From Pseudosulfitobacter pseudonitzschiae (lineage in GTDB: Bacteria > Pseudomonadota > Alphaproteobacteria > Rhodobacterales > Rhodobacteraceae), in contig NZ_CP022415.1 in assembly GCF_002222635.1 (NCBI RefSeq), positions 1,674,001-1,738,000 of the forward strand: DNA of 64,000 bases, read 5' to 3'. Under the pieces are notes generated by a model. It was not told where the DNA came from. It searched no databases and saw only the letters and a program-made list of their open reading frames with translations. Both the position numbers and the translations under genes were made by a program. Each line of letters begins with the position of its first letter. The stretch's first letter is position 1. Of the stretch, positions 36,298 to 57,029 are shown piece by piece.

Positions 36298-36503
36298 TTA
36301 TGCACCGATGGCCAGTCGCTGGCGGTCGTCCCCCGACAGCACACCGGGTTCGGGATCACACAGGACATAACCGCGCCCCCAGACCGTTTCGATATAGTTC
36401 TGCCCACCGGTCGCCGTGCTGAGCTTTTTGCGCAGTTTGCAAATGAACACGTCGATAATCTTCAACTCGGGCTCGTCCATGCCACCGTAAAGATGGTTCA
36501 AAA
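36298..36503 (-). pseudogene. ctrA: ctrA 3' fragment, cut off by the prophage
   Basis: Encodes the last 66 residues of the cell-cycle response regulator CtrA, including the DNA-recognition part of its winged helix ([20 protein letters not shown]) and the wing ([13 protein letters not shown]). It is in the same orientation as the N-terminal fragment at 56504-57029. Joining the two restores an apparently continuous CtrA of about 241 codons. Upstream of this fragment the frame closes at a TAA brought by the element, so it has no native start. Confidence 0.9.
36488..36503 (+). repeat. Left attachment-like direct repeat
   Basis: TAAAGAT-GG-TTCAAAA at the ctrA 3' junction. It matches the right copy at 56494-56509 in 14 of 16 positions. 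Confidence 0.6.
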
Positions 36504-36853
36504 TTTCTTAGCTTAGGCGCAGATTCAACGGCTTGTCTGCCAAAATTATACGGACAAAGCGAAAACAAAGTGCGAAACTTATACCGCTGGATCCAGCAGG
36601 TCACGCAATTGCACTAGGGCGTGTGGCCGAGATCATCAACACGATGTTCAAGACCAAATGAGAGCAGATATTTTGAGCGACGCCATGACAGAATGTATTC
36701 TGATCAGTGCTCAATTATAGGCGGAAAATCGTTGATGTCGGGTCGACGCAAGCAGATCTTTGCCTGCTTCACGTTTCCACGTGAAACTTCTGGAACCAAC
36801 TTTCTCACCTGCATGTTGGATTACTACTATTCAAAACAAACGAAGTGAAAAAA
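36504..36853. other. Left-end non-coding or decayed DNA of the element
   Basis: About 350 nt with no credible intact gene. A short open stretch ending at 36662 (reading GHAIALGRVAEIINTMFKTK before a stop) looks like the tail of a lost gene, but I cannot assign it. Confidence 0.35.
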
Positions 36854-37477
36854 ATGACACTCAGGACATTCATGGTGACAACTGCTGTGTCCGCGTTGAT
36901 CGCGAGTGGAGCGATTGCTCAGATCACCGGCACACCGAGCGCCGACCCGACTACGGCAACAGAACCGGCGATCGCCCCTAAATTCAGCTCAATCAGTGAA
37001 ATGACCGTAGGCAACATCATCGGAAAAAACGTTTATGATCCCAATGGTGATACAATTGGCGATATCGACTACATTATTGACCGTGACGGCGGAGCAAATG
37101 TAGTAGTCGGCGTCGGTGGCTTTCTCGGCCTTGGCGAATATACTGTTACTCTACCACTCGAAGATTTAACCTTTGACGCGGAGCAGCAGATGATAAAGCT
37201 GGATACGACGAAAGAAGCGCTGAAAGAGCGTCCGGAAATCGACGAAACTGAGCTTGAAAGCCTGCCGGATGACACACAGCTGGGTGAATTTTTGGCTAGT
37301 GCTGACACGACAGAAGACGCAGGTACGGCGTCCGAACCAGCAACTCGCGACGAGACATCAACGGATACCCCTGCTTCAGATGACGCAACCGCAGACACAG
37401 CTACCAAAGATGCTGATGCGACAGTCACGGACGATACCAATTCCATCGAAGAAACAAAGGACAAGCTGTCCGACTGA
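36854..37477 (+). CDS. Exported PRC-barrel domain protein
   Basis: A 207-residue protein with a signal peptide (LRTFMVTTAVSALIASGAIA). A PRC-barrel domain spans about residues 50-120 (MTVGNIIGKNVYDPNGDTIGDIDYIIDRDG...). The C-terminal tail is acidic and Thr/Ala-rich, of low complexity. PRC barrels are found in RNA-processing and photosynthetic proteins, and exported versions are common in Rhizobiales and Rhodobacterales without known roles. ATG 36854 is used; a GTG three codons upstream is possible. A terminator follows. Confidence 0.8.
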   Translation: MTLRTFMVTTAVSALIASGAIAQITGTPSADPTTATEPAIAPKFSSISEMTVGNIIGKNVYDPNGDTIGDIDYIIDRDGGANVVVGVGGFLGLGEYTVTLPLEDLTFDAEQQMIKLDTTKEALKERPEIDETELESLPDDTQLGEFLASADTTEDAGTASEPATRDETSTDTPASDDATADTATKDADATVTDDTNSIEETKDKLSD

Positions 37478-37488
37478 CCGAGGTAAGT

Positions 37489-37521
37489 AGCCCCCAAACC
37501 TTTAAGATTGGGGGCTGTTTT
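37489..37521 (+). terminator. Terminator of PRC-barrel gene
   Basis: The stem AGCCCCCAA/TTGGGGGCT is followed by GTTTT, 12 nt after the stop. Confidence 0.8.
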
Positions 37522-37700
37522 GAAAGACGAGTCCCAGATTTTCACCTGAACCATTTGGTCAATACGTCTGACCACCGCAGGCATAACTCCGCCTACCTCT
37601 GGCTGCCGTTGAGGAACCAATCCACTCTAACAGACGTTGTGCTCTCATATTCGCTAAGAGCATTTTGGCTCGCAGCATAAAATTAGAAGTGGACTCAACA

Positions 37701-38228
37701 ATGTTAGATTCTCTCAAGATAATCGGACTTGCAACTGGAGTGAGCGTTGCAATGTGGTGTTCGGCGGCTGCGGCTCAGGAACAAGTGGAATTCTCGGACA
37801 TCAATGTCGAAGCTTCAATGTCAGCTGCTACAAACAGCAACGCCTTGCAGGTCTTCCCAGAAATCGAAGCTGACCTGCAGACAGCCATAGCCTCTCGCGT
37901 ACTGACAAGTGATGATGCAAGTGACCCCACAATCCGCATCGATATTCGTCAAATTTCCCTGAACGGCAATCCGATGCTGGTTGGCTCCAACGATTTCAAT
38001 GAAATCCAAGGGGTGGTGGATATTTCTGACCCAAATAACGATATCGGCGGTCAAAGCTTCCCAGTCAACATTGCAGCATATGCAGCAGACCAAGCCATAC
38101 CAGAGGGATATGTGGTAATCGCCCCCTCACAGAGCGATTTTTATACAGCGATGATTAACGGCTTTGCAGATTCCGTTGTAGCAGAAGTCGAAAAGTTGAA
38201 CCCAGCCACATCTGGCGGCAAGAATTAA
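37701..38228 (+). CDS. Exported protein of unknown function
   Basis: A 175-residue protein starting MLDSLKIIGLATGVSVAMW, a signal peptide ending near AAAAQE. The mature part is acidic with no motif I recognise (VFPEIEADLQTAIASRVL, DIRQISLNGNPMLVG). It may be periplasmic. It lies 180 nt after the terminator of the PRC-barrel gene, so it has its own transcription unit. Confidence 0.65.
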   Translation: MLDSLKIIGLATGVSVAMWCSAAAAQEQVEFSDINVEASMSAATNSNALQVFPEIEADLQTAIASRVLTSDDASDPTIRIDIRQISLNGNPMLVGSNDFNEIQGVVDISDPNNDIGGQSFPVNIAAYAADQAIPEGYVVIAPSQSDFYTAMINGFADSVVAEVEKLNPATSGGKN

Positions 38229-38251
38229 CTTTCACCTAATTTTTACACGAA

Positions 38252-38276
38252 TGGTCGTCGCTGGTTGCGGCGACCA
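38252..38276 (+). terminator. Hairpin after exported-protein gene
   Basis: The stem TGGTCGTCGC/GCGGCGACCA (one G-T pair) lies 24 nt after the stop, with only a poor T tract. It is a possible terminator. Confidence 0.4.
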
Positions 38277-38469
38277 CTTGCGTTTGTAAAGGCACCGTCC
38301 TCCCGGTTTCTTCGGTGGAAACGAGCAGACAGCTGCCCTATTGAGTTGAAAATTAAACAAAACTGCATCTATTTAGCTTTCAGCATATCAAGACTTAGAG
38401 TCTCTACTTGAGGGGTTCGGGGGGGTTACTTAAAGCTCGTCAGAAAGATCGTTGAGGCATATTATTCTT

Positions 38470-39402
38470 ATGGATATCACCCTGATCAAGACATTTATCG
38501 AAGTCGCCAACACCGGCTCGTTCGTCGCGGCGCGGGGTCGGCTCTTCGTGACGCAATCTGCTATCAGCCTACGTATTCAACGTCTCGAGGACAGTCTGGG
38601 TCACCAACTGTTCACTCGGTCAAAGGCTGGGGCGGTACTCACAGCCGAGGGTCAGCAATTTGAACCCTATGCCCTGAGTCTTCTAAAAATCTGGGAAGAG
38701 TCCCGTCAAAAAATCTCCATTCCGGATGGCTACAAGAGAGCAATCAGTATCGGTGCACAATATTCACTCTGGCCAGGGTTAGGATTTCGCTGGCTGGATT
38801 CTCTCCAAACTGAAATGCCAGAATTGAGTATCCATGCAGAAGTAGGTTCGCCAGACCGTATCACACGTTTTCTGGTCGAGGGCATCGTGCAGGCAGCACT
38901 ACTTTATACACCCCAACTGCGCCCCGGGTTGATCGTGGAACCGGCCTTGGATGATGAGTTGATCCTAGTGGCCTCTTATCCGGACGCAAGCTTGGAAAGG
39001 CTATTGGGATATGTGTCCGTAGATTGGGGGCCTGAGTTCACCCATGCGCTTGCGTTCGCGCTCCCCCATTTGATAGATTCTGGCCGCTCCATGGCGTTGG
39101 GGGCGCTTACAATGGAATATGTCGTCAACCGGTGTGCATCTGCATTTCTGCCCGCAAGGTCGGTAAAAAGATATCTGGACAATGGAAAGCTCCACCTTGT
39201 GGCAGATGCGCCACGATTTCCTTACCCGTCTTGGGTGGTCTTGCGGGCAGACTTAACTCCGGATCTTGCAGAGCTAGCCGGACGGACGTTGAAGGCCGTA
39301 GTGCAGGGTGCTGAAAAGGCTCAGGAATCGCTCTTGGGTGAACTGGATCTCATGGAAGGCTATGAACCTGTCCCCAAAGTTAATTTTAAAGACAAGAAAT
39401 AG
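38470..39402 (+). CDS. LysR-family transcriptional regulator
   Basis: A 310-residue regulator. The N-terminal winged helix (MDITLIKTFIEVANTGSFVAARGRLFVTQSAISLRIQRLEDSLG) is classic LysR. The effector domain follows but is diverged from the common LysR_substrate pattern. The start at 38470 fits the family, although the ribosome site is weak; a TTG at 38452 is possible. Its target may be the outer-membrane protein gene 122 nt downstream. Confidence 0.88.
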   Translation: MDITLIKTFIEVANTGSFVAARGRLFVTQSAISLRIQRLEDSLGHQLFTRSKAGAVLTAEGQQFEPYALSLLKIWEESRQKISIPDGYKRAISIGAQYSLWPGLGFRWLDSLQTEMPELSIHAEVGSPDRITRFLVEGIVQAALLYTPQLRPGLIVEPALDDELILVASYPDASLERLLGYVSVDWGPEFTHALAFALPHLIDSGRSMALGALTMEYVVNRCASAFLPARSVKRYLDNGKLHLVADAPRFPYPSWVVLRADLTPDLAELAGRTLKAVVQGAEKAQESLLGELDLMEGYEPVPKVNFKDKK

Positions 39403-39524
39403 TCGCTTTATCTATAAACAATCCGAATTATCCTCATGTATCGGTGGGTGATAAATCCAAACCTAGCAGCAATGCTTTCGAACCAAATACGGTTCGGATC
39501 ACTTCTATTGGGAAGGATTGTCCC

Positions 39525-40379
39525 ATGAAAATGCTCACAAAAATTGCCACTGCCTCTGCACTGGCTCTGATCATTGCTAATCCTGCAATGGCACAAAGCA
39601 CTGTGACAGGTGTCACCGGTCTGAACGATCAGATAGACGACGTCACTACTCAAGTTGAACGTGACCAACGAAACGGCAATGACGCAGACCGCTTTGGCCC
39701 GAATGGTGTCGCAGAAGGTTGGCGCGGCTCGTTCGCCCTAACTGCCTCGGGCACCTCCGGCAATACCGATAATGGGGAATTGGCTGGTGCGGGCCGTCTC
39801 ACTTACGGAGTAGGTGATTGGAGCCACCTTATTGGGTTCGCGGTCGAATACGGCGAAGCAAACGGCACGAAGAACGAAGAAAAGTTCTTTGGCACCTACG
39901 AGGCCAGCCGTTACTTTACACCGGAATTCTACATGTTCGGGATTGGCCGCTTCCAGTATGATGGCCTGTTGACCAACAACACCGGGGCAATCCTGCCCGG
40001 CTCGGAAACCGATGCGTTCCTTGGCTTTGGTCCGGGCTACCGGGTGCTGAGCGAGCCGAACCAGACTTGGCGTGTTCAAGCAGGCCCTGGCGCGCGTTAT
40101 TATAAAGACGCGACTGGCGTGTCTGACACTGAGGTTGGTTTCATCGTGTCCTCGCGTTATTTTTACGCGCTTACTGATACGGTTTCATTCACCAATGATA
40201 CCGACGTACTTGGTTCTGACACAAACACGATTGTCTCGAACGATGCTGGTCTCAATTTTAAAGTATCGAACAACCTGTCTACACGCTTGAGCTACCGCAC
40301 CGACTATAATACCGACCCGACAGCCGGTCTGAAATCTACAGACAACACTCTTGGCGTTTCGCTTGTGATGGGGTTCTAA
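39525..40379 (+). CDS. DUF481-family outer-membrane protein
   Basis: A 284-residue protein with a signal peptide (MKMLTKIATASALALIIANP, cleavage after AMA). WRGSFALTASGTSGNTDNGELAGAGRLTYGVGDWSH is the DUF481 (YdiY-like) start, and the chain ends GVSLVMGF with the terminal Phe of barrels. The start follows GGAAGGA. The family is thought to be salt- or acid-inducible in E. coli; the role here is unknown. A terminator follows. Confidence 0.85.
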   Translation: MKMLTKIATASALALIIANPAMAQSTVTGVTGLNDQIDDVTTQVERDQRNGNDADRFGPNGVAEGWRGSFALTASGTSGNTDNGELAGAGRLTYGVGDWSHLIGFAVEYGEANGTKNEEKFFGTYEASRYFTPEFYMFGIGRFQYDGLLTNNTGAILPGSETDAFLGFGPGYRVLSEPNQTWRVQAGPGARYYKDATGVSDTEVGFIVSSRYFYALTDTVSFTNDTDVLGSDTNTIVSNDAGLNFKVSNNLSTRLSYRTDYNTDPTAGLKSTDNTLGVSLVMGF

Positions 40380-40432
40380 ATCAGACGAATTCCTTGGGTG
40401 GGATTTACCTCGCGCCGCCCAAGGGCAATCTG

Positions 40433-40463
40433 AACAGGGAATGGGGATACCATTCCCTGTTTC
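40433..40463 (+). terminator. Terminator of DUF481 gene
   Basis: The perfect 11-bp stem ACAGGGAATGG/CCATTCCCTGT is followed by TTTC. Confidence 0.8.
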
Positions 40464-40669
40464 TGTCTGTGCGCTCGCCTTTGTTGATGACGTGGAACGC
40501 CAACCCATTCTTCATAAACTTACGCAATGCGTCATTTTCACGGCTTTGAAGATATACCCCACGTGGGCATTGACCTGCCCCGCCGATCAGATGCAGGTTG
40601 TTGACCAAGGATCAGGTCAGAGGCTGTATTGTCTGGCCCCGATAAGTTCTGGGGCGCCAGGCGCCGACA

Positions 40670-40875
40670 GGCGGCGCGCTTCATCCCATCGACGAAGACA
40701 TCAACCGGATCATAGCCAAGCTGCGGGCTCGGGTCGAGCTTCCCTTCCGCGCACTCAAGCGCCAGTTCAGCTACATCAAGACCCGCTATCGGGGTCTGGC
40801 GAAGAACCGCGCGAGCTGTTCACGCTGTTCGCCCTTGGCAACCTGTTCCTCGTCCGACGAAAGCTGATGGCATAA
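40670..40875 (+). pseudogene. IS5-type transposase C-terminal remnant, frameshifted
   Basis: The end of an IS5-family transposase is readable: HPIDEDINRIIAKLRARVEL, then ALKRQFSYIKTRYRGLAKNR, then a one-base deletion near 40810 and, in another frame, ELFTLFALGNLFLVRRKLMA and stop. The catalytic DDE domain upstream is absent. It is a dead insertion-sequence scar inside the element. Confidence 0.75.
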
Positions 40876-41055
40876 GGTGGGCTCTGCCCAAAATCAGCCG
40901 TTGAGCGCGTCAGGGCTGCCAATTCTGGCATTCCCAGCGCGAAGTCAGGCCCCACCCGCAAAATCAAAGCCCGATTGATCCGAAGTCAGCGCAGCCGAAG
41001 CAGTAGATCAGACGCTCCCTAACACTACCTGAACTACGCCAACCCTCCTGTAAGG

Positions 41056-42051
41056 TTAAGAAATTGAAGTATTGCGTGCGCGAGAGATTGTTTCATTTGG
41101 ATGTTCATCAAACTTCCGGGCGTACGCCTGAGAAAACCGACCCAAATGTGTAATCCCACATTCATAAGCTATTGTTGAAACTTGGTCTTGGGGATGCGGA
41201 TCACACAGTCGACGATGTGCATACTCAATTCGAGTATCTGCAATCATTTGCCGTATTGTTATACCATACGTTTTTCTAAATGCTGTCTGAAGACTTCTCA
41301 CTCCCATTCCAATATCTCTTGCAATTTCAGCTACACGCAGCGGTTCATGAAATTTTTCACGGATAAACGCCTCTACTAGCTTCGCTCTCTCGACGTCGCG
41401 AGAACTAGCAACTTGGGAATAATCCGAGATCGTTAAATGAAAAATAGCGTCTTTAACACACTCTTCAAGCAGGATTTCCATGCCCTCTAGATATCGTTCA
41501 GTAGGAACAACAGGAGACCCTGGACTCAACTCATCAGAAAGCAACTGCAAATATCGTACTAGACGATAGTTATGCGCATCACTAAAACGCAGTTCCATCC
41601 CATATGGAAGAATTTCAAGCAACTCTCCAGAAATTAAGCCTTCAGAGTCTCTATCTGAATAGAGATCTTTAGAAAACTGGAACACCAAACATTGACAAAA
41701 TTCATCATTAAGCGGATCCACAACAGACCAGCGATCGCAAGGGCGACTTAAAAGGGCACTCTTCCCAGAGTTGGCCCAGACTTCTGAACCTGCAACCCGA
41801 ATTCCAACACGCCCGTTGAGCGGGAGGAGAAGCGCACCTGTGTCGTGCACACTAATCTCTATTTCGTGGCCTGTAGAAAACAGCCTAGTCAAACGAAACC
41901 CAGATTTAGGAAGAGCTATTGACTCTTCGGTCAATTTTGTGCGGTCCGAAATAAATCTAAATTTCTTAGCCTTTCCGAACATGGGACTATCCCAAGCATT
42001 CGCAAGTGTATCAATAGTCGACGAAGTGTGAAAAAGTCCAGCCAAAATCAT
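41056..42051 (-). CDS. AraC-family regulator (AT-rich)
   Basis: A protein of up to 331 residues. The C-terminal 100 residues contain two helix-turn-helix units (LRVAEIARDIGMGVRSLQTAFRKTYG and VSTIAYECGITHLGRFSQAYARKF), as in AraC/XylS regulators. The N-terminal half is a cupin-like effector domain of the AraC_binding_2 kind. The DNA is distinctly AT-rich compared with the core genome. The start is uncertain: GGGAG abuts ATG 42051, and Met24 is an alternative. It lies downstream of the Hint operon on the same strand. Confidence 0.85.
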   Translation of the reverse strand: MILAGLFHTSSTIDTLANAWDSPMFGKAKKFRFISDRTKLTEESIALPKSGFRLTRLFSTGHEIEISVHDTGALLLPLNGRVGIRVAGSEVWANSGKSALLSRPCDRWSVVDPLNDEFCQCLVFQFSKDLYSDRDSEGLISGELLEILPYGMELRFSDAHNYRLVRYLQLLSDELSPGSPVVPTERYLEGMEILLEECVKDAIFHLTISDYSQVASSRDVERAKLVEAFIREKFHEPLRVAEIARDIGMGVRSLQTAFRKTYGITIRQMIADTRIEYAHRRLCDPHPQDQVSTIAYECGITHLGRFSQAYARKFDEHPNETISRARNTSIS

Positions 42052-42340
42052 CTCCCATCAACGAACATAGGCAACTCAGGATCCAAGCCAATTCTCCGCA
42101 AGGCTTTGACTTAATTGAAAGATTGCCCTCTGCACAGATCAACAAGACATATTGTATTCTGAGTATAATGTAGTACACCTAACTGGAGAGTAAAGTGCGG
42201 AACTACAAGAAATAAAATTGAAAAGTAAAACATCTCCACTCTCCGTATTTCATATATATAATAACTTCAGGCTTCGATCGCCTTCCCCTATAAGGCCAAA
42301 CTTGACACAATAAACTTCAAACTACACACCCTAGATAGTT
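42052..42340. other. AT-rich intergenic region
   Basis: 289 nt of AT-rich DNA between the Hint operon and the AraC gene. It presumably holds the AraC promoter. No clear gene or terminator is seen. Confidence 0.4.
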
Positions 42341-42481
42341 TTATGAAGTTCGACATATAACGAACAGAATAGATAATATCGAGACGATATAGATAAAAAG
42401 GGATGCGAGAAAGGGTGCTCCCATAGCAATCGAGAAGGACACCAAAGACGTCAATGCAAGAAATGACAAAAGGTATTCCAT
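42341..42481 (-). CDS. 46-residue membrane peptide, third gene of the Hint operon
   Basis: A short open frame starting 9 nt after the degenerate-Hint gene stop, with AAGGA 12 nt before the ATG. The product, MEYLLSFLALTSLVSFSIAM then GAPFLASLFIYIVSILSILF, is almost wholly hydrophobic with two short or one long membrane segment and a tail of VICRTS. Such peptides can be holin-like toxins, immunity peptides or membrane partners; I cannot choose. It is too short for many gene finders. Confidence 0.5.
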   Translation of the reverse strand: MEYLLSFLALTSLVSFSIAMGAPFLASLFIYIVSILSILFVICRTS

Positions 42482-42490
42482 CCCTAAACG

Positions 42491-42964
42491 CTATCCTTTC
42501 TTATTAATAACAGCCATATCAGATGAGAGGGATTTTAAAATTAGCCCTTCGACACCGATCATAGCTCCTTCTGATAAGGCCACCTCGAAATACTCTATAT
42601 ATGGATAGGGATATTCTTCCGTTAAGATTCCATGCGTCCAAAGGTCTGATGCACGCACCCACTCACATACCTTATATCTGATGCGTGGCTTTCGAATCGC
42701 TATCAAAATCTCTTGACTAGCGCTTACTATGACACTGCTATAAGGAATCTTAGATCCAATCGCGCCCATTGGAATAACTACTGGTCGATATTTCGCTGTC
42801 CAATCAGATAACAATTCAGTGAAAATTGAATTTTTCCTCGTATATTGGATAGGGCATAACTTTTCAGACAATGGAGCTAACACGTACTCACCAGCACAAA
42901 GTTTTTGAACTGACCGCGCACCTCTGTCTGAATCGATCATCACCTTAGAGCCTTGCGCAATCAC
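42491..42964 (-). CDS. Degenerate Hint-like protein
   Basis: A 157-residue protein whose order of elements copies a Hint_2 domain: MIDSDRGARSVQKLCAGEYV (start block), YRPVVIPMGAIGSKIPYSSVIVSASQEILI (mid block) and EYFEVALSEGAMIGVEGLILKSL (end block). The catalytic residues are missing: there is no Cys at the start block, and the usual S-x-Q-H-R is SASQE. Its ATG overlaps the upstream Hint gene stop (ATGA). I infer an inactive paralogue, perhaps a partner or regulator of the active protein. Confidence 0.6.
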   Translation of the reverse strand: MIAQGSKVMIDSDRGARSVQKLCAGEYVLAPLSEKLCPIQYTRKNSIFTELLSDWTAKYRPVVIPMGAIGSKIPYSSVIVSASQEILIAIRKPRIRYKVCEWVRASDLWTHGILTEEYPYPYIEYFEVALSEGAMIGVEGLILKSLSSDMAVINKKG

Positions 42965-44151
42965 GAGCGTGCTCCCTGAAAAAGAAAATCGCTCCCAAGG
43001 TTATTGAAGGTGTGGTGTTTCTCAACCGAAACTAGTGAACGATTGTGTTTTTTATGTCGCCTGATCAAGTTTGAAATAAACGACTGCTTCTGAATTACTA
43101 GACGTGCGCTATTCTGAAGCCCAGTCTCAGGTAAAAGTTCAGGGAAAAGGAGAGAGATTTCACTAATTTGCTCGGAAGATAGCGTTTTAAGAGTTTCGAC
43201 TCCTAAGTATAAACTTTCTGTTATCGCACCATTGCTAAAAACAAGGGCATGACTGTCAAGCAGAATGTGATAGTACTCCACCTCAGTGAGAGATGTATCA
43301 ATTTCCACTCCAGAATACTCAACTAGCTTTTTTGCAGGAACAAGAATTTCATTTTCACCAAACATATTTTTTGAAATTTGCGAAGATATGTAAATACGAT
43401 GTTGCTGCGAAACATATAAATCTTTACCAGGCATTCCTTTACCAATAGTATCTTTCTTAATTGTTACAGGGTACAGGCTTGGGTTTCTTTTTAGAGTTTC
43501 TGCGTCGACCTTTGTTGAAGCAATCCATTCTAGTTTTTGGTACCCCGAATCCAACGTAAGAACGAAATCACCAACTTTTAAATTTTCAACCTCAACCTCA
43601 CCTTCTAGTGTCTTAATGAACGTCCCCTTGGCAAAACAGACCATCGGATAGTCATCTTCCAAAGCGTTGCTTGTGCTTCGCGCGTTTACTTGGCTTATAA
43701 ACTCAGTGATTTCAATTGATGCAATCTTATCAAGCGCATAATCTTCTCCACCAGGTCCGTCTGAGCCTTCGAACACTTTCTGAATGGCATTATCATGAAG
43801 ACGAAATATTAGCTTCTTATCACTAGGGCCCACGCCTGGATTATCCGGATCGTCAACTAATCGCATCACCATAATTTGTGTTTGTAAAGTGGTACCGTCG
43901 GCATAGGTAATCAGTGCATCATAAGACCAATGATGCGATATATTGTAGGTCTCCCCATCGAACGCCACACCATCGTTGGTATGACTGGTGCCTGTTGATG
44001 TACTCCCAACGGAACCGTTCTCATCACCATCCCGATATATCACTCGACTATATGTAGGATCGCTTTGAAATTTGTATCCAATTAGGTTCTCTGGTGAGTT
44101 CGGCGCAAGTCCCCGGTCGGTAACCCAAGCCCACGAATGTTGCTGTGCCAT
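42961..44151 (-). CDS. Hint-domain protein (Hint_2 type)
   Basis: A 396-residue protein with a Hedgehog/intein-type Hint domain at about residues 170-340. It starts CFAKGTFIKTLEGEVEVENLKVGDFVLTLD, keeps the catalytic Cys and the block YVSQQHRIYIS, and ends YYHILLDSHALVFSNGAITESLYLG. The N-terminal 170 residues are variable and Gly/Asp-rich, as in secreted Rhodobacterales proteins. Hint domains self-cleave; Hint_2 proteins usually lack the full C-terminal splicing site. The ribosome site GGAG lies 9 nt upstream. The DNA is AT-rich, suggesting recent transfer. Confidence 0.82.
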   Translation of the reverse strand: MAQQHSWAWVTDRGLAPNSPENLIGYKFQSDPTYSRVIYRDGDENGSVGSTSTGTSHTNDGVAFDGETYNISHHWSYDALITYADGTTLQTQIMVMRLVDDPDNPGVGPSDKKLIFRLHDNAIQKVFEGSDGPGGEDYALDKIASIEITEFISQVNARSTSNALEDDYPMVCFAKGTFIKTLEGEVEVENLKVGDFVLTLDSGYQKLEWIASTKVDAETLKRNPSLYPVTIKKDTIGKGMPGKDLYVSQQHRIYISSQISKNMFGENEILVPAKKLVEYSGVEIDTSLTEVEYYHILLDSHALVFSNGAITESLYLGVETLKTLSSEQISEISLLFPELLPETGLQNSARLVIQKQSFISNLIRRHKKHNRSLVSVEKHHTFNNLGSDFLFQGARS

Positions 44152-44495
44152 TTAAACTACTCCAGAATCCATACCCGATTTTGCACTAATCTATTGATAA
44201 GGATCATCACTTGAGTTTTGGCAAGTAAGTAGGTTTTGTTTTACATGTTTCGGATAGCAATGTTCGCTCTGTGGATATTCACTCAATCAGTGGTTGTTGA
44301 AGAAGCTTTCAATTTTATGTTTCTTATTAAGTGATCTGTGTTTGGGCCAGCCACCTCAATGAAGCTGTGCTGTCGCTTCCCTCACGCACAACGCGCTCTT
44401 TACCCACAGCCCGCGTCATGCCCCTGCACCACGGCGGTCCGCCCGTTGAGACTACAAATTTGGATATTGACGCCCACCCGGCTGCCGACTGCCCC
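44152..44495. other. Intergenic region with gene-tail repeat
   Basis: 344 nt containing the promoter of the Hint operon (reverse) and repeat copy A. No gene is seen. Confidence 0.4.
44403..44445 (+). repeat. Gene-tail repeat, copy A
   Basis: About 43 nt, closely similar to copy D at the 3' end of the spanin-like gene. On the reverse strand it reads TAVVQGHDAGCG before a stop. Confidence 0.6.
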
Positions 44496-45306: not shown

Positions 45307-45425
45307 GTTTTATGATTCCGGATTAGACGTGCCCCACTCTCGCGGGAGTCGGGCGACATAATCCTTCTCGGATGTCGGCGCAGCTGGTCTCCAAACTAGG
45401 CTGCGTGGTGGCGCATAGCGTCACC

Positions 45426-45449
45426 CCCGCCCGTGACGGGCGGGTTTTC
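45426..45449 (+). terminator. Orphan terminator-like hairpin
   Basis: The stem CCCGCCCG/CGGGCGGG is followed by TTTTC. The T run is on the forward strand, but no forward gene lies upstream, so it may remain from a lost gene. Confidence 0.6.
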
Positions 45450-45470
45450 TTCCGGCGACGGTCAGCCACC

Positions 45471-47858: not shown

Positions 47859-47871
47859 GGTGTCTCCAATA

Positions 47872-47894: not shown

Positions 47895-47925
47895 ATGGTG
47901 GTCAGATTGCGGGGTGGTTGACCTG

Positions 47926-48168: not shown

Positions 48169-48171
48169 GGA

Positions 48172-49373: not shown

Positions 49374-50305
49374 CAGACTATTCCTTGTACTTCGATTGAG
49401 ATGATGGCGTGATCCGCGCCGGTGTAGAGCGTCCGGTAGCCACGATAGAACCCGTAGTTTGTCGCCGCATATTCGTTGGTTTCGCTGGCAATCCAGACCA
49501 CAGGTGTCCCGCCGCGCAGACCCTTGAGAATCCGCGTCACAGCTGCCACGCTGTTGCGCTTGACCACAACGTCGAAGTCCATAAGCCGCGTGGCCTCGCG
49601 CTTCATCGTCTCGAGATTGCCAAAGTCGTCGGTCTGCACAAAGCTGAAGTCGAGACCCGAGGCCGCAATCCCGTCCTGCGGTGTGATCCCCAGCTCGGAG
49701 ACATAGCCCTGCACGATCTGGCCCACCGCAACCTCCGGCCCCGTCGCCGTCACCACGATACGCGGCGTGCCAAGCACCGGCAGGTCGGTCAGCACGAACT
49801 CTTCCAGCGGGCGGAACGGTTCGACAAAATAAGCCAGCCAGTCGGTTACGGCGCTTTCGTCGTTCATCTCCACCGTGCGGTCATAGATCAGGTCCGGATC
49901 GGCATAGACCCGTACCCGCACGGTGTCGGCAACAATCCCGTATCCGGCAAGGCCACCGATAAACACGCCCGGTGTCACTTCAAACTCGATCGAGCCCGCC
50001 TGCACCGCAGGCTGTGACGGCTTTCGATCAAAGACCCGCCAGCGGTTCGTGGCCCCGATGATCTGCCAGTAGACAGGGTCGGGATTGTCCACCAGCGGAT
50101 CCGCAAGCGCCGCCACCTCTAGGTCGGGATCGTTGCCGGTGTTGTCATCGAGCAGCGACCGGTAAACCGCGTGCGTGACCAGACTGATGGCAAACTCCCC
50201 CCGCGCGTAGGTCGTGAGTGCGGACCAGACCGCATGGTCATCCTCGGCCACATTGGTGGCTGTCAGGGTCAGCCCGGTGACCGGCACCGGCAGGATGATT
50301 TTCAT
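49373..50305 (-). CDS. Phage tail-tip protein with carbohydrate-binding-like module
   Basis: A 310-residue structural protein following the tape measure with a 4-nt overlap. Its N-terminal part (VWSALTTYARGEFAISLVTHAVYRSLLDDNTGNDP...YWQIIGATNRW) resembles the CBM5/12 pattern seen in phage adhesins. The remainder is beta-rich. Likely part of the distal tail. Confidence 0.6.
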   Translation of the reverse strand: MKIILPVPVTGLTLTATNVAEDDHAVWSALTTYARGEFAISLVTHAVYRSLLDDNTGNDPDLEVAALADPLVDNPDPVYWQIIGATNRWRVFDRKPSQPAVQAGSIEFEVTPGVFIGGLAGYGIVADTVRVRVYADPDLIYDRTVEMNDESAVTDWLAYFVEPFRPLEEFVLTDLPVLGTPRIVVTATGPEVAVGQIVQGYVSELGITPQDGIAASGLDFSFVQTDDFGNLETMKREATRLMDFDVVVKRNSVAAVTRILKGLRGGTPVVWIASETNEYAATNYGFYRGYRTLYTGADHAIISIEVQGIV

Positions 50306-53300
50306 GTGCCGGGCTCCAGTTCGGCACGGCGTGCCTGATTAAAGAGCCGGTTGGTCAGCCGCGCGTTGCTCTGGTCGCCCTCGCGGATCGCGCGCACCAC
50401 CTCGCGCAGCAGCGTGGTGACATCATCCCCCGCAGCGGTCCGGATGTCCTCGAGGCTGGCGCGATACCCACCTGCGGTTTGCGCATAAATCTGGTCCGCT
50501 TTGGTTTTGAACAGCGTGTTGTTGGCAAGACTGGCACTCAGGGCATCCGAGGCGGCCGTAATGTCGGCAAAGGCCGGTGACAGTTTGATCAGCGCTGCCA
50601 CCAGCTCGCTGTCGCCCAGACTGTCGGCCTCATCCACCAACGCCCGGAAGGCCGCGCGGCTGGCGGGCAGTGCGTTGATCCCGAGATCCGACAGCTGCTC
50701 CGTCAACCGCTGCGTCGCCTTGGCCGTGCGTTCCTGTGCGGTGTAGAACTCCTGGTAATAGGCGCCGGTGATAGTGCCGAAGTCCTGCAAGCTGCCGAAG
50801 AGATCGACAAAGCTGCTGGCGGCATCGCCGCCCACCAGTGACAGATCATAAAGCTGCAGCCCCAGCGCATCCATCATCGGATTGACCGCCTGCAGGCTGC
50901 TGACGATCCGCTGCAGCGCATCAAACGACCCCTCGCCCACACGCTTCAGCGCCTCGAACTTCTCGTTCACATGGCTGATCGTTTCGGTGGTGGTCCGGTT
51001 GAAGAGCTTGCCGAACAGCCCCGACAGCGCAGTGCCACCAAAGATGTTGGACGTGGTGGTGATGATCTCGTCAAAGCTGCCCACCATCGCGTCCGCAAAG
51101 ACATCCGACAGCCGCCCCATCTCTTCGGTGATGGCCGTCCGGATCTCCTCTTCGGTCTTGCCCTTGGTCGAGATCTTGAACCGGAAGCTGGCGAGATCGA
51201 TGTTGTCTGCATCAAAGCCGATGAAGCTGCCCATATCCATGACGCTTTTGGCAATGTCCCCGATCGCCGCCTGCAAGGGCGCTGCCACATCATCCGCTGC
51301 TTCTTTGTAGGAGGTGCTGACCTTCTTGCTCAGCCCCCAGTACTTTTTGGTCTCGATGGTTTTGAAGGTCTCGACCAGCGCATCCATGCCATCCACGGTG
51401 ATCCGCAGGCCTGCATCCAGTTCCGTCACCTTCTTTTTGAAGAAGGAGAAGACGGCTGCCACCGCCAGAACCGGTGCGGCAATGGCCCCGATCGCACCCG
51501 CAATGGCGGTGCCGGTGCCGGTTGCAAAGGCCGTGCCCACCTGCGCGCCGATGCTGCCGAACATACCGCCGACACCGCTGCTGAACAGCGAACCGACCGA
51601 GTTCATAAATCCGCCTGTCAGCGCGCTGCCAAGACCGCCCAAGCCGCCCAGCAGGCCACCGCCACCACCGGCCCCGCCAAACATGCCGCCAACCTGTCCC
51701 ACACCGGGAACGCCCGCAGCTGCAGCACCTGCGCCGCCGCCCGTCATCCCCATCGACAGCATGATGCGGTTGCGGGCCGCAAGGCTGATCATCTGTGACA
51801 GCATCTGCTGGAAGCCGCCCAGAATGGAGCCGACAAAGCCCTTAAAATCCTTGAAGCCCCGCGCCATAAAGTCGCCAAAGGCATCGGCCACGCCGCCGAT
51901 CGCGGTGACCAGCGGGCGCTGCATTTCTTCGCGCAGGCGTTTGGCTTCTTTCTCCGCCTCCGTCAGGGCTTTCGAGGCCTTGTCGATCCCCTTGCCCGCC
52001 TTGCCGCCAGCCGCAGCGGTCTCATCCAGAACTTCATTCAGATCCCGACCGGCATCCGACGTGCGCTCTGCCTCTGCGCGCGCCGCCGCCACGCTGTCGG
52101 TCAGCACCCCCACCGAGGCCAGCGGGGCCACAACGCCTGCTTTCAACGCCTCGCCCACACCAGACGCCAGTTCTCCGGTTGCACGCAGCTCGCCCGACAT
52201 CTCGCGCATTGCACCGGTCGCCATACCGACATCGATGTATTGCGTGTTGAACGCGTCGCTGAACGCAGCACCGGCCTGGCCTGCGATGTCCACGGCATCG
52301 CCGACCTCGACCTTCCACGCCGAAAGGTCCGGCGGGGCAATGGCTGTGCCTCCAAATTTGGTGATGATCGCGTTCAGGGGCTCCAGAACACCGCCAATGC
52401 CGTTGCCGATCATTGTGATCAGCCCGTTGATCGCCTCCGCGCCGATCCGCTTGAAGGCCGCAGGCAGCGCATTCCACGCTGTGGTCACCGCCTTGAACGC
52501 CCCGACAAAAGCACCGATGATCTTGTTGTTGGTTTCAAGCGTAAATTCCACGATGCCTGCAAGCGCATCGACGGCGTCCGCCTTGGTCCGCAGCCAGCCC
52601 GCCTCCATCTGGAAACCAGCCGCATCAAAGGCCAGAACAATCCGGCTCCAGACTTCTGCCGCCACATCCTTCAGCAGGTTCATCGCCACACCAAAGCCGC
52701 CGACCGAGCCGGAAAGATCGATAAACTTGCCGACCAGAACACCCGCTGCCACCACAACCGCCCCGATGCCCGAGGAGAGCAGCGCACCGCGCAATGCGAC
52801 CAAAGCCCCGCCGAGCGAGAAGGTCGCCACTTTGGCCAGCACCAGAGCGCCGACATAGCGCACTCCGAAGGCGGTAACTGCGACAGTCACCACACCGGCC
52901 AACGTGCCGAGGTTCTGCGTAAACCCGTCGATCATCGCCCGCAGCAACCCGCCCTCTTTCAGGCTGTCGGTCATCGCCTGCGCCATTGCACCAAGTGATG
53001 GCACAAGGGCAATCGCCAGCTGCTGGCCTGCGTATTGCGAGATCAGGCCAAGCCGCCCGATCTGATCGTTTGCCGTCTCGATCGCACCCGCATCGACCTT
53101 GCTGACCTCGAGCCCGTAAGCCCTGATGTCGGCCCGCGCGTCGCGGATCGCATCGCCGCCCTGCAGTACCAGCAGCGCCATTTCCCGGTTGCGCACGCCC
53201 AGATCGCGCAGGATCGCCGTGGTTTTGCCCGAGGACAGCCCCAGCGCCTTGACCCTGTCGGCAATCACCGCCAGCTTTTCGTCGGCATCAATGCCTTGCA

Positions 53301-53691
53301 GATCCGCCAGCTCCAGCCCCAAAGCCTCCAGCGCGCGCTTGCCGTTGCCCGAGGTGCCGACACTGGCCAGCTCGCGGTTCATGGTCTGGATGTCGTTGGT
53401 GAGCCCAGACAGGCTCACCCCCGCCTCGCCTGCCGACAGCTCAAGTGCCCGAAAGCCCCCGATCGAGCTGTCCAGACGCCGCGCCGCTTTGGCCGCCGCA
53501 TCGATCTGGTTGGCCCCCGCCAGCGCCGCCGTCGCCAAAGCCGCGCCGAAGGCCGCCGCCGCACCGGCGACAGCGGCAAACTGCAGCTTCATCTTACTCA
53601 GTGCGCGGTCCGCCTCGCTGGCCCCCTTGCTGAACTTCGCACTGTCAAGGCCAAGGTTGACGCGCAGCGCGCCGATCACCGATTGCGACAT
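50302..53691 (-). CDS. Phage tail tape measure protein
   Basis: A 1129-residue protein, long and Ala-rich, with N-terminal coiled coil (KFSKGASEADRALSKMKLQFAAVAG), repeated hydrophobic helices (about residues 270-320) and a Gly-rich stretch (GGAGGGGGLLGGLGGLGSALTGG) near residue 700. This is the usual make-up of a tape measure that sets tail length. At about 1.5 angstrom per residue it implies a tail near 170 nm (inference). It directly follows the chaperone extension frame. Confidence 0.9.
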   Translation of the reverse strand: MSQSVIGALRVNLGLDSAKFSKGASEADRALSKMKLQFAAVAGAAAAFGAALATAALAGANQIDAAAKAARRLDSSIGGFRALELSAGEAGVSLSGLTNDIQTMNRELASVGTSGNGKRALEALGLELADLQGIDADEKLAVIADRVKALGLSSGKTTAILRDLGVRNREMALLVLQGGDAIRDARADIRAYGLEVSKVDAGAIETANDQIGRLGLISQYAGQQLAIALVPSLGAMAQAMTDSLKEGGLLRAMIDGFTQNLGTLAGVVTVAVTAFGVRYVGALVLAKVATFSLGGALVALRGALLSSGIGAVVVAAGVLVGKFIDLSGSVGGFGVAMNLLKDVAAEVWSRIVLAFDAAGFQMEAGWLRTKADAVDALAGIVEFTLETNNKIIGAFVGAFKAVTTAWNALPAAFKRIGAEAINGLITMIGNGIGGVLEPLNAIITKFGGTAIAPPDLSAWKVEVGDAVDIAGQAGAAFSDAFNTQYIDVGMATGAMREMSGELRATGELASGVGEALKAGVVAPLASVGVLTDSVAAARAEAERTSDAGRDLNEVLDETAAAGGKAGKGIDKASKALTEAEKEAKRLREEMQRPLVTAIGGVADAFGDFMARGFKDFKGFVGSILGGFQQMLSQMISLAARNRIMLSMGMTGGGAGAAAAGVPGVGQVGGMFGGAGGGGGLLGGLGGLGSALTGGFMNSVGSLFSSGVGGMFGSIGAQVGTAFATGTGTAIAGAIGAIAAPVLAVAAVFSFFKKKVTELDAGLRITVDGMDALVETFKTIETKKYWGLSKKVSTSYKEAADDVAAPLQAAIGDIAKSVMDMGSFIGFDADNIDLASFRFKISTKGKTEEEIRTAITEEMGRLSDVFADAMVGSFDEIITTTSNIFGGTALSGLFGKLFNRTTTETISHVNEKFEALKRVGEGSFDALQRIVSSLQAVNPMMDALGLQLYDLSLVGGDAASSFVDLFGSLQDFGTITGAYYQEFYTAQERTAKATQRLTEQLSDLGINALPASRAAFRALVDEADSLGDSELVAALIKLSPAFADITAASDALSASLANNTLFKTKADQIYAQTAGGYRASLEDIRTAAGDDVTTLLREVVRAIREGDQSNARLTNRLFNQARRAELEPGT

Positions 53692-54000
53692 CTATGTCTT
53701 CCTTCCTGCCATTGCGATGAAGAACGCGCGCACCTGCGCTTGTGCCACTTCATCTGGCACCGCAGATTTGCTCTTGGTTTTGGAGTATTTCGGGAGCTTT
53801 TTCGGGGCGTGGAAGGCAAGTGCCACAAGCCCCGCCATCTCGAAGTTGCGCGCCCGCGCCAGCTCGTGCTCGTTTTCCATTCTGGCGACTGCAGCGTGCA
53901 GGATCGTGATGATCTCGCGCGGGGTCAGCCGCCAGAACCGCTCGTAGTCCTGACCCGCCTCAAGCCAGCTGGCCTGAAGCGCATCAATCAGGTCGCGGGC
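53692..54000 (-). CDS. Tail-assembly chaperone extension (-1 frame)
   Basis: An open frame that overlaps the end of the chaperone gene in the -1 frame and ends just before the tape measure gene. It reads RDLIDALQASWLEAGQDYERFW then ...MENEHELARARNFEMAGLVALAFHAPKK. An internal ATG at 53880 would give only 62 residues. In many long-tailed phages this second part is made by programmed -1 frameshifting (the lambda G/GT system). A matching slippery heptamer lies at 54021-54027. Confidence 0.65.
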   Translation of the reverse strand, partial: ARDLIDALQASWLEAGQDYERFWRLTPREIITILHAAVARMENEHELARARNFEMAGLVALAFHAPKKLPKYSKTKSKSAVPDEVAQAQVRAFFIAMAGRKT

Positions 54001-55390
54001 TTTGCCTTCGGGCGGGGCTTGCCCCCCGCTGGCGCGTTTCCCGGGGCGCTTCCCTGTCCCGAAGCGGCCTCGGGGAAGGCTGCTTGGGCCGCCTGCGTGA
54101 TCAGATCCACCGCTTGCGCAAAGCCCACATCCGAGATCAGCTCGCCTGCATCCTCAAGCGTGTGCTGATCGGGGCCGACACCGGCCCAGAAGATCCGACG
54201 CAGACGGGTAAAGTCGGGCACATCGCGCCCTTCCATCGCCCGCAGCGCATCGACAAAGTTCTCGCTGAAGGTCTCTTCATAGGCCAGCATGGCGTTGACC
54301 GAGAAGCGCATCCGGAAGCTTGTGCCATCGACCTCGAAGGGAATTGCCCCGCGCCGCGCGCTCATGGGACTAGCCGAGACCGTATCGCCGCTGGTGTCGA
54401 CATAGGCGGCTTCGGTGGAGGACGAGATCACCAGCTTCATACTGTCGCCCACCATGCAGTCGTTGAAGTCGGCAAAGAACACTTCTGTTTCGTCGCCCCC
54501 GACGCCCAGATTGTCCGGCAGCTGCGAGGTGGTTTTGACCGGATAGCCCAGCAGCGTGTTGCTCTGGTCGATCGAGGGAAACAGATAGGAGCCGTGGTTG
54601 GGCTCGCGCAGGCTGGCAAGGAAGTTGCGCGTCGAAGCCCGCATGATCCAGCCGCAAGAGATCATCGCCACATTGGCATCCTGCACTTTCGACACCATCT
54701 GGCGCAGTGCAGCCTCGACCGCCGCCGCCGTCTTGGCCACCGCCGTTTGCGTGTGCCCCGCCAGCACCCAGCCGCCCAGACCTTTGGGCGTATCTGCCGT
54801 CCCGTCACCGCGCAGGAACGCCAGATCCTTGCGCAAGCCCATCACGTCCAGCATGTCGTCGCGCACCAGCTGCATCACCGCCGCCCCGCTGTGACGCAAG
54901 AGCGCATTGCCCACCGGCACCAGCGTGCGCAGGGTCTTGAAGCTCTGGTCCACCTTGTCAAAGGTCGGCTCGCTCTCTTCGGTGACGTGGTTTTCTGCCC
55001 CGTAGTTGGCCGTCGCACTGGTGGCCTGACGGGCATTGCGCACTTCACCTGCAGGCATGTCGATGATCCGCGCGCCGGAGTTGATCACAGTGACACGCGG
55101 GCGCAGCAGCTCGATGACCTCGGCGGCCTGCGCCTGCGGGATGGTCACCCCGCCCGCGCTGTCGCTGGCCCCCGACAGGGCCGCCGACATGCCGCTGTGC
55201 CCGTCCTTGTCGAGCCGTGCAACAGCGCGGTCCTTGTCGCCTTTGCTGTTGGCCAGCGCATGCACCATGAAGGCAAAGCCGATCCCCTTGTCCGTGAGTG
55301 CGAAGCAGAGGGGCGTGTTGTCCGCAAAGTCATCATCGATGGGAAGCGCATCGAATTGGAATTTGCTGACGCGAAAGCCGTTCAATCTCT
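53988..55390 (-). CDS. Capsid fragment fused to tail-assembly chaperone (deletion fusion)
   Basis: The upper part is an HK97-type major capsid fragment (VTIPQAQAAEVIELLRPRVTVINSGARIIDMPAGEV ... LAFLRGDGTADTPKGLGGW). It ends at DTSGDTVSA, about 40 residues early, and runs in frame into MSARRGAIPFEVDGTSFRMR, the start of a 125-residue tail chaperone whose own ATG is at 54365. The genes normally between them (connectors, tail tube) are gone. The capsid 5' part is also cut, near the integrase start. The frame is open further upstream, to 55568, inside the integrase gene; the true start is unclear. Confidence 0.75.
54021..54027 (-). promoter_or_regulatory. Candidate -1 frameshift heptamer
   Basis: On the reverse strand, G GGG GGC in the chaperone zero frame fits X XXY YYZ. 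A -1 slip joins the chaperone to the extension frame 53692-54000. Confidence 0.5.
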
Positions 55391-55402
55391 GGACAACGTG
55401 AA

Positions 55403-56389
55403 ATGGTGAAGCGTAACTTGCCGCCCTATGTCTACAAGATGGGCCGCATGGGCTATCTCTACTACCGACGCGACGGCGTTTCGCATCGTATGCCAGACGA
55501 CCCCGCCAGCGCCGAGTTTGCACAAGAATACGCCCGCTTACGTAGTGGACGCGCCGTTCCGAAAGCAAAGCGCAACATCAAGAAGCTGATTGCAAGCTAT
55601 ATGGCGTCCGAAAAGTGGCGGGGGAAAAAGCTGAACACGCAGAAAAGCTATCGCCAATCGTTCCGGTATCTCGAAGAAAAGATCGGGCCATTCGATCCGG
55701 CAAGCATCAAGCCGCACAACGTATACGACATGCGTGACAGTATGGCAGACAAGCCGACCACATCAAAGCGACGGGTCAGCGCTCTTTCGGTACTGATGCA
55801 ACATGCAGTGCAAATCGGGTGGATAGATCGCAACCCAATTCACAAGTTTGAACACTTGAAAACCAAGAAGGCGCCACGCAAGCCTTGGCCGCAAGATTTA
55901 ATCGACGCAGCGCGCGCCAAAGCACCGCCAGACACGCGCCTGCTGTTCGAGATGATGTTAGGCACCGGGCAGCGGATTAGCGACGTACTGGCCATGCAAT
56001 GGGACCAAATCGAAGATGATGGGATATGGGTCAGCCAAGGAAAGACGGGTGCTCGCCTCTACGTTCCCTTCACCGCACGGCTCTTGGATATGCTGTCAGG
56101 GATACCCCGTCGCGGCCTGCACATCATCACCCTGCCCGACGGTCGCCCCATGAAGTACAACAGCGCCTATAACCGCATGATGGAACTTCGCAGGGAAATT
56201 GGTGCTGAGGAGTATGACAACCATGCCCTGCGCCACTCCGCGGCATCCGAAATCGCCGCCCTGCCCGGTATGACTGAAGAACATGTCAAAGCACTGACGG
56301 GCCACACCTCATCGAACATGGTTCGACTGTATTCAGGCCCAGCAGGTCAGAAGGCGCGCGCAACCGAAGCCCAAAAAGCGAGGAAGTAA
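55403..56389 (+). CDS. int: Phage-type tyrosine integrase
   Basis: A 328-residue site-specific recombinase starting MVKRNLPPYVYKMGRMGYLYYRR, an N-terminal pattern common in Rhodobacteraceae prophage integrases. Catalytic residues are present: Arg in GTGQRISDVLAM, Lys in QGKTGARL, His-x-x-Arg in HALRHS, His in LTGHTSS and the nucleophile Tyr in MVRLYSG. It lies about 105 nt from the right attachment repeat. Its upstream DNA is capsid sequence, so the native promoter has probably been lost. Confidence 0.93.
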   Translation: MVKRNLPPYVYKMGRMGYLYYRRDGVSHRMPDDPASAEFAQEYARLRSGRAVPKAKRNIKKLIASYMASEKWRGKKLNTQKSYRQSFRYLEEKIGPFDPASIKPHNVYDMRDSMADKPTTSKRRVSALSVLMQHAVQIGWIDRNPIHKFEHLKTKKAPRKPWPQDLIDAARAKAPPDTRLLFEMMLGTGQRISDVLAMQWDQIEDDGIWVSQGKTGARLYVPFTARLLDMLSGIPRRGLHIITLPDGRPMKYNSAYNRMMELRREIGAEEYDNHALRHSAASEIAALPGMTEEHVKALTGHTSSNMVRLYSGPAGQKARATEAQKARK

Positions 56390-56492
56390 GGTTTGGAACG
56401 GACCGTAAACGAAAGGTGAATGTTAGAACCGTCCTTTACCACCTGAACTGCAAGGCTTGCAATATATTGATAGTAAACAATAAAGTATGCTC

Positions 56493-57029
56493 CTAAAGAT
56501 ACTTCAAAAACATTTCTTTGGTCAGCGTCGTGCCCTTGCGCAGACTCAAAAGCTCGAGCATCTGATATTCCTTGCCCGTCAGATGGACCGATTTATTGTC
56601 GACGCTGACAGTTTTCGCATCCAGATTTACCGAAATAAGCCCGGTTTCGATAACCGACTGCGAATGCCCCTTGGAACGGCGGATGATGGCATGAATGCGC
56701 GCCACCAGTTCTTCGCGGTGGAAAGGCTTGGTCAGGTAATCATCTGCACCAAACCCGAATCCCTTAATCTTGTTTTCGGTGTCGTCCGCACCCGACAGGA
56801 TGAGAATTGGCGTTTCAATCCGTGCCAGACGCAATTGGCGCAACACTTCGTGGCCGTTCATGTCAGGCAGATCGAGATCAAGAAGGATCAGATCGTAATC
56901 ATAGAGCTTTGCAAGATCGATCCCCTCTTCCCCAAGATCCGTCGCATAGACGTTCAGGTTGGCATGGGTCAGCATCAGTTCGATACTTTTCGAGGTCGTG
57001 GGATCGTCTTCAACAAGCAAAACGCGCAT
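56493..57029 (-). pseudogene. ctrA: ctrA 5' fragment (receiver and partial winged helix)
   Basis: A 178-residue frame starting [20 protein letters not shown]. It contains the full receiver domain (phospho-acceptor Asp51 in [13 protein letters not shown]) and the first part of the OmpR-type winged helix ([27 protein letters not shown]). It ends with KYL and a stop supplied by the element. The recognition helix and wing are on the separate fragment at 36298-36503. The product can still be phosphorylated but should not bind CtrA boxes. Confidence 0.92.
56494..56509 (+). repeat. Right attachment-like direct repeat
   Basis: TAAAGAT-AC-TTCAAAA at the ctrA 5' junction, matching the left copy at 36488-36503 in 14 of 16 positions. 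Confidence 0.6.

Follow-up and report, generated by a model that had tools for sequence, protein, structure and literature searches.

Can a temperate phage take a master regulator of its host out of action by integrating into the regulator's coding sequence, and could the gene be recovered afterwards? The question is raised by a stretch of 64,000 nucleotides of the Pseudosulfitobacter pseudonitzschiae genome (contig NZ_CP022415.1, positions 1,674,001 to 1,738,000; hereafter the window), in which the gene ctrA is split in two by 20 kb of phage-derived DNA. Its product CtrA is among the best-studied alphaproteobacterial master regulators. A first-pass annotation, made from the letters of the window, had described a prophage that uses the ctrA coding sequence as its target, so that lysogeny switches ctrA off and excision would restore it. 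On our analysis it is very probable that the insertion is the remnant of a temperate phage in a bacterial attachment site (attB) within ctrA, and that its family uses ctrA as the standard site in several genera of Rhodobacteraceae. The choice of target is strongly supported and recurrent; regulated, reversible switching in this strain is unproven.

The split ctrA gene

In the window, ctrA lies on the minus strand in two pieces, broken after codon 175 of 241 (Leu175). The 5' part (56503..57029, minus strand) encodes the receiver domain and the first part of the winged helix and is native to codon 175 and into codon 176. The 3' part (36298..36503, minus strand) encodes the recognition-helix region and is open to the native stop codon; an in-frame stop codon lies a few codons upstream of it. 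When positions 36504-56509 were excluded, the halves joined over the heptamer TTTTGAA into a complete, normal CtrA of 241 amino acids ending in RLAIGA. The expectation that the halves could be rejoined and that excision would restore the gene is borne out to this extent: a crossover at the heptamer would give exactly ctrA.

In the lysogen state, the truncated open reading frame (ORF) of ctrA (56493..57029, minus strand) encodes 178 amino acids, native to Leu175 and followed by KYL and a stop codon, in agreement with the 175 codons counted in the first-pass annotation. The best match of this ORF was NF045991, the NCBIfam equivalog of Rhodobacterales CtrA (model positions 1-178 of 224, 315.6 bits; the cut-off of 350 bits is set for whole proteins). 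The recognition helix of OmpR-type winged helices is presumably located in the stretch of CtrA directly after the break. Lysogeny would thus truncate CtrA before this helix, as had been proposed, and we infer that lysogens are without working CtrA, as the receiver is retained in the product and the recognition helix is lost.

All five congeners examined carried a full-length ctrA (97-99% identical), and their DNA was collinear and continuous across the break, with the same neighbours. Since all five loci are continuous where the window is cut, we attribute the split to one clean insertion. A second intact ctrA, which would argue against loss of the regulator, was sought in the window's genome (5.12 Mb, rated 100% complete) and none was found, the best other match to the N-terminal half being 37% identical.

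Recurrence of the junction in other genomes

A search of other genomes for the same junction, as the first-pass annotation had proposed, revealed 11 further genomes, 12 counting the window, in which an element with a related integrase interrupts ctrA at this position. These comprised 4 of 20 Salipiger genomes, 6 of 125 genomes of the genus of Paracoccus cavernae, and Pseudooceanicola marinus. Targeting of the ctrA coding sequence by a phage integrase thus recurs in at least four genera, counting that of the window.

Using an alignment of five integrases as query, a scan of genome contigs yielded seven loci. In six of them (three Salipiger bermudensis strains, Salipiger thiooxidans, Pseudooceanicola marinus and Paracoccus cavernae) the integrase lay next to the ctrA 5' half, which ended at the same codon as in the window; in one it lay at the start of rlmJ. 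All six ctrA-split genomes had the 3' half elsewhere and no intact ctrA; four genomes had the halves on one contig, with distances of 39.7, 40.0, 47.2 and 49.9 kb between them, and two had them on separate contigs. In Salipiger (20 genomes), ctrA was split in 4, full length in 15 and frameshifted in 1. In the genus of P. cavernae (125 genomes), the CtrA match ended at residue 177-180 in 6 and at residue 195 in 1 (G526), with no match at E 1e-60 in 2; all 6 split genomes had a related integrase at one of the junctions. G526 was not counted as a phage case, its match ending about 100 bp from a contig end.

The integrase was convergent beside the ctrA 5' half in 11 of the 12 genomes. The other genome, G456 (L150-L152), had the integrase beside the 3' half and carried the direct repeat AATGTTCCTCAA. 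In G459 (contig C1), the ctrA halves were on opposite strands and separated by 1.09 Mb, an arrangement suggestive of a large inversion, one end of which lies in the prophage. Large terminase, portal, head-morphogenesis and tape-measure genes were present in the G424 element (10 ORFs scanned). The G472 element measured 10.5 kb, with the integrase and the ctrA 3' half open, and the G568 element 7.2 kb; in G568, only the C-terminal part of the integrase is left, and transposase (rve) sequence stands in place of the ctrA 3' half.

We also surveyed the family with one genome per genus (394 genomes), of which 365 matched CtrA at E 1e-60 or better. Twelve low-scoring genomes and 10 of the 29 without a match were re-searched, and among these 22 a break at this site was found in G117 only. 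The rest showed contig-edge ends, frameshifts (G246, G027), breaks elsewhere, full-length but divergent genes, or no close match; G383 had a break near residue 121-125 and G011 only the C-terminal part.

A further ctrA lesion was seen in the Salipiger genome G434 (contig C125, L118), where a frameshift lies in a run of seven G just past the phage site and the 3.5-kb locus had no integrase match. This homopolymer frameshift, which may be a sequencing error, phase variation or loss, was not counted as a phage case.

Attachment site and crossover

The two copies of the TTTTGAA core on the minus strand mark the left attachment site (attL, the 5' junction; 56503..56509) and the right one (attR, the 3' junction; 36497..36503). 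Among nine attL/attR pairs examined, the longest common word was 7-12 bp in every pair, and CTSAA, which ends codon 175 and starts codon 176, was within the common word of all eight pairs from outside the window. For the window pair, our script returned the word AAGAAAT, which has the same length as TTTTGAA and lies two to three bases from it; TTTTGAA is the word at which a crossover restores the frame. The truncated CtrA ended 3-10 residues past Leu175 in 9 of the 12 cases and after 53-68 residues in G459, G568 and G426. These data point to a conserved attB at about codons 173-178 of ctrA, within which the strands cross over where codon 175 ends and codon 176 (Asn176) begins.

The phage side of the site was recognizable in a related contig of IMG/VR. 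The attR region with the adjoining phage arm (36485..36587) carries TTTTCGCTTTGTC on the minus strand and is 71% identical to the phage attachment site (attP) region of phage contig L054 (5129-5231), and DNA resembling TTTTCGCTTTGTC was common to several phage arms. In L054, the DNA after the integrase aligned in one stretch to both ends of the window's element, as a joined attP, and AACCATCT was common to L054 and the window's ctrA. DNA similarity to the related phage contigs set in 106 bp ahead of the integrase start; from the opposite junction it extended 84 bp into the element.

The integrase family and phage Pkon1

The window's element encodes a full-length tyrosine integrase of 328 amino acids (55403..56389, plus strand), convergent with the ctrA 5' part and ending 114 bp from the 5' junction. 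It is 80-81% identical to the integrases of three IMG/VR contigs and 54% identical to that of Paracoccus phage vB_PkoS_Pkon1 (MK291442, 2019). The element shares with Pkon1-type ctrA-integrating phages both a related integrase (about 50% identity or more) beside the attachment site and an attB in ctrA around codons 173-178.

Pkon1 was obtained by induction of Paracoccus kondratievae, and the phage was sequenced; according to the published account, integration at its attachment site disrupts an 'OmpR family regulator' (PMC6536676). The printed attB, GTTTCTCAA(G/C)CAT, fits ctrA codons 173-177 with the same crossover as in the window, so that the printed letters are consistent with ctrA as the target of Pkon1; the term 'ctrA' has 0 occurrences in the main text of that report (PMC6536676). 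The two cases are alike in their integrases, the crossover and, on this reading, the disrupted gene, but Pkon1 is a complete phage of 49.7 kb whereas the window holds a remnant. The related integrase of P. cavernae was 48% identical. In the other five split genomes of its genus, the integrases were 65-93% identical to that of Pkon1.

We examined whether the family is strictly ctrA-specific and rejected this. In S. thiooxidans, whose ctrA is already occupied, a second family integrase (L060, 8914-9921) lies in front of an intact rlmJ (9979-10764, PF04378), and CAACACCTCTAC at this locus resembles the ctrA core region; rlmJ is possibly a secondary site. Three of four relatives with about 40% identity lay near tRNA-Cys: the loci L010, L012 and L013, from other genera of the window's family, have integrases about 38-40% identical to the window's but differ in lying near tRNA-Cys (GCA) genes and in holding no ctrA fragment. 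It is possible that tRNA-Cys is the ancestral target. The integrase tree was built from 22 of 25 extracted rows (P. cavernae with 2 amino acids recovered, G036_L014 with 38 and G018_L015 with 222 were dropped for length, and the G568 integrase was not among the extracted rows), and ctrA users fell into three of its clades.

Two IMG/VR contigs, L054 and L055, had a 1.8-kb integrase module that was 99.7% identical at the DNA level, and most of the compared remainder differed. We conclude from this that the integration module moves between phages.

Anatomy of the inserted element

The integrated element spans 36504..56509 (20,006 bp including one core copy). Recognized phage structural genes were confined to about 47.2-55.3 kb, all on the minus strand: an HK97-type major capsid fragment (53988..55400) whose N-terminal part is missing and which continues into a tail-protein domain (phrog_2115), a tail tape measure protein of 1129 amino acids (50302..53691; Pfam and PHROGs scans), a phage protein of unknown function (49373..50305; phrog_6278 of PHROGs) and an M15 peptidase or endolysin-like protein (47205..47858; Pfam and PHROGs scans). 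Of the functions that mark a complete phage (terminase, portal, capsid, lysis and repressor), only the capsid fragment, the tape measure and the endolysin-like protein were represented among the 20 ORFs scanned. Neither terminase nor portal was found among these 20 Pfam-scanned ORFs, 10 of which were also scanned with PHROGs, the other, mostly shorter ORFs lying outside the scan. The 20-kb prophage of the first-pass annotation stands as a phage-derived insertion of that size but does not look like a whole phage. The likeliest description is the remnant of a temperate phage with foreign cargo, in which the integration module has been kept.

Independence, age and selection

The independence of the insertions was examined on a genome tree of 27 rows (six genomes of the window's genus, 20 of Salipiger and P. 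marinus; Paracoccus lay outside the tree). The split state needs four changes on the best tree; three are possible, the Salipiger backbone being poorly supported. One ancestral insertion for all cases is accordingly not favoured. A single insertion may account for the split in the three S. bermudensis genomes.

Among four Salipiger lysogens, integrase, ctrA and nearby host DNA aligned at 82-88%. For phage DNA reaching as far as 10 kb upstream from the integrase, there was patchy or no similarity: of the six pairs of these genomes, two had no match, two matched over about 0.5 kb, one over 1.2 kb and one over at least 2.9 kb. This combination indicates a turnover, of phages or of phage bodies, at a single site. 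The divergence of the integrases is roughly that of the host flank, so the integrase may have stayed while phage bodies were swapped.

Pairwise ratios of non-synonymous to synonymous substitution (dN/dS) were calculated for codons 1-174 (5' part) and for 45 codons of the 3' part; the split genes covered were those of the window, the S. bermudensis trio, S. thiooxidans and P. marinus. In comparisons of the window with three congeners, dN/dS was 0.008-0.014 (5') and 0 (3'), and for four intact pairs 0.006-0.034 (5') and 0-0.027 (3'). The S. bermudensis trio gave 0.02-0.04 (5') and 0-0.035 (3'). In S. thiooxidans, the values were 0.025-0.027 (5') and 0.02-0.08 (3'), with 0.08 for the 3' part against S. 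bermudensis AmN7-7. The split P. marinus gene compared with a Salipiger gave 0.09 (5') and 0.10 (3'), above all others. Low values fit a recent and a reversible insertion alike, since pairwise values include the time before insertion.

Consequences of integration for ctrA

Our best reading is a ctrA-targeting integrase family that resembles the comK prophages in effect. The phage's own tyrosine integrase would insert phage DNA into the conserved attB inside ctrA, and integration would be reversible in principle because one crossover at the core restores the exact gene. A lysogen without CtrA would escape CtrA-dependent lysis for the release of gene transfer agents (GTAs) and also some CtrA-dependent superinfecting phages, which may be the benefit to the phage. 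In Rhodobacter capsulatus, CtrA is required for GTA production, maturation and release (PMC6363796), and a ctrA deletion of R. capsulatus is resistant to phage Jorvik, whose infection requires CtrA (PMC10589892). The GTA family PF13547 is present in the window's genome.

Several points weigh against this reading. The core repeat of the window is only 7 bp long, and the integrase family is not confined to ctrA, members also lying at rlmJ and near tRNA-Cys. No excisionase was recognized in the window's element, which may for that reason be locked in. If still phosphorylated, the truncated CtrA might retain some activity or act as a competitor. The proposed benefits in GTA lysis and superinfection are drawn by analogy from other species. 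Finally, we found no CtrA boxes (TTAA-N7-TTAA) in the phage DNA examined, which comprised the window, parts of the G424 element, Pkon1, a 15-kb portion of L054 and about 11 kb from three further prophages (0-0.17 expected in each), and a direct circuit between CtrA and the phage is therefore unsupported.

What happens to ctrA after insertion can be read in different ways. The alternative that survives best, plausible if slightly short of probable, is a dead end: a recent insertion followed by phage decay, with ctrA permanently lost and bound to decay. The remnant anatomy of the window's element fits this, as do the decayed G568 element and the 10.5-kb G472 element. Flagellin, which belongs to the CtrA core regulon elsewhere, is a fragment in four of the six genomes of the window's genus and unmatched in one, so CtrA may be less needed there. 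Against such a loss, the integrase and both ctrA halves are intact in the window, and all five congeners keep a full-length ctrA with few amino-acid changes, even where flagellin is gone.

Motility requires the CtrA relay in Phaeobacter (PMC12363192), and we considered it as the regulated trait in the window's host. It was rejected: the flagellin fragment is shared with three ctrA-intact congeners, and the host's motility is probably gone for a reason other than the ctrA split. The genome's sole Flagellin_N match is a fragment of 54 amino acids from its ATG (G000:C1:3294704-3294838, L163), which makes motility a poor read-out in this host. The fragment runs head-on into the tail of flgE (named by eye), as if by a deletion between two convergent genes, and the same arrangement was found in G003, G004 and G005 (L175, L176 and L177), whose ctrA is intact. 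G001 has a full-length flagellin and G002 no flagellin match. Split ctrA does not track flagellin loss, as all 20 Salipiger genomes had flagellin matches.

It is unlikely, in our judgement, that the locus is a regulated switch in the manner of active lysogeny, with some cells excising the element without lysis and regaining CtrA, and with selection keeping the halves and the integrase as in the comK and sigK skin systems. The window does have one feature of active lysogeny, in that both halves are intact and precise joining restores the ORF. Its phage genes are eroded, yet no part is missing or interrupted in the integrase, the two core sites or either half of ctrA; the dN/dS values of the S. 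bermudensis trio resemble those of intact pairs, and the related contig L054 carries a joined attP. However, pairwise dN/dS cannot separate a reversible from a recent insertion and is raised for P. marinus (0.09 and 0.10) and the S. thiooxidans 3' part (0.08), the 7.2-kb remnant G568 has lost the integrity of both its integrase and its ctrA 3' half, and an excisionase was not recognized. The wide separation of the ctrA halves in G459 and the small size of the G472 element also speak against reversibility as a rule.

In Bacillus, the sigK skin is a decayed phage-derived element that has kept its recombinase and splits a regulator gene, and it is removed in a programmed manner in the mother cell. 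The window's element resembles the skin in being a decayed, recombinase-bearing element within a regulator gene; programmed removal is a feature of the skin. The comK prophages of Listeria (A118, phi10403S) are likewise siphoviruses inside a master-regulator gene that is restored by precise excision, and excision without phage production was demonstrated there (PMC6872733), whereas the window's element is eroded. The phiSa3int prophages in hlb of Staphylococcus also integrate into a gene, and excision, which was measured there, is reported to restore it, but the target is not a regulator (PMC6597384).

It is quite improbable that the truncated CtrA is itself functional, as a phosphate sink or dimer partner, such that lysogeny rewires the CckA-ChpT-CtrA relay rather than merely removing CtrA. 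The N-terminal product is in frame with an unchanged receiver and ends 3-10 residues past Leu175 in 9 of 12 cases, but the appended tails vary from one lysogen to another, those of G459, G568 and G426 being as long as 53-68 residues. An assembly or mis-scaffolding artefact, raised in the first-pass annotation, is hardly credible: 11 other genomes contain this junction, formed there by related elements, and the break, with its clean core repeat, is located inside a 3.57-Mb contig.

Returning to the ctrA-targeting integrase family, a wider proposition is that one family of temperate phages in the Rhodobacteraceae uses ctrA integration as a reversible off-switch for CtrA, acting on GTA release, surface structures and cell-cycle traits and protecting the lysogen from CtrA-dependent GTA lysis and superinfection, and that eroded members, the window's element among them, are kept as skin-like switches. 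We regard this as doubtful. GTA lysis and superinfection control provide a testable reason for a phage to choose ctrA.

The first-pass annotation knew of no earlier description of such a phage-regulated developmental switch. The kind of system is known, as prophages in protein genes with excision restoring the gene, and both the Listeria comK prophages and one precedent, Pkon1 in an 'OmpR family regulator' not named as ctrA, preceded it. What stands is that ctrA was not found named as a phage attachment site in the literature searched, outside of which lay subscription papers and preprints ('ctra' was not found in the main text of PMC8224337); neither is ctrA as the standard attB of a phage family in four genera named there. 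The Pkon1 case is now tied to the window, and ctrA, which is cut at the same position in each of 12 genomes, emerges as an attachment site that phages use repeatedly. We predict that natural ctrA-minus lysogens are not rare (4 of 20 Salipiger genomes are split), that GTA and motility phenotypes in these genera can depend on lysogeny, and that the sequenced state of strains such as Salipiger bermudensis HTCC2601 is ctrA-minus.

Cargo of the element

The part of the element at 36.6-46.3 kb is mostly of bacterial type and has a G+C content (GC) of 49%, compared with 63% in the structural part. A D12-class adenine methyltransferase (44734..45306, minus strand) is probably truncated, covering 183 of 253 model positions. 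The low-GC cargo (36845..44151) encodes a PRC-barrel protein, a LysR regulator, a DUF481 protein, an AraC regulator and two Hint-domain proteins, and an outer-membrane barrel is also encoded at 36.6-46.3 kb. The two Hint-domain (PF13403) proteins are neighbours, at 42491-44151.

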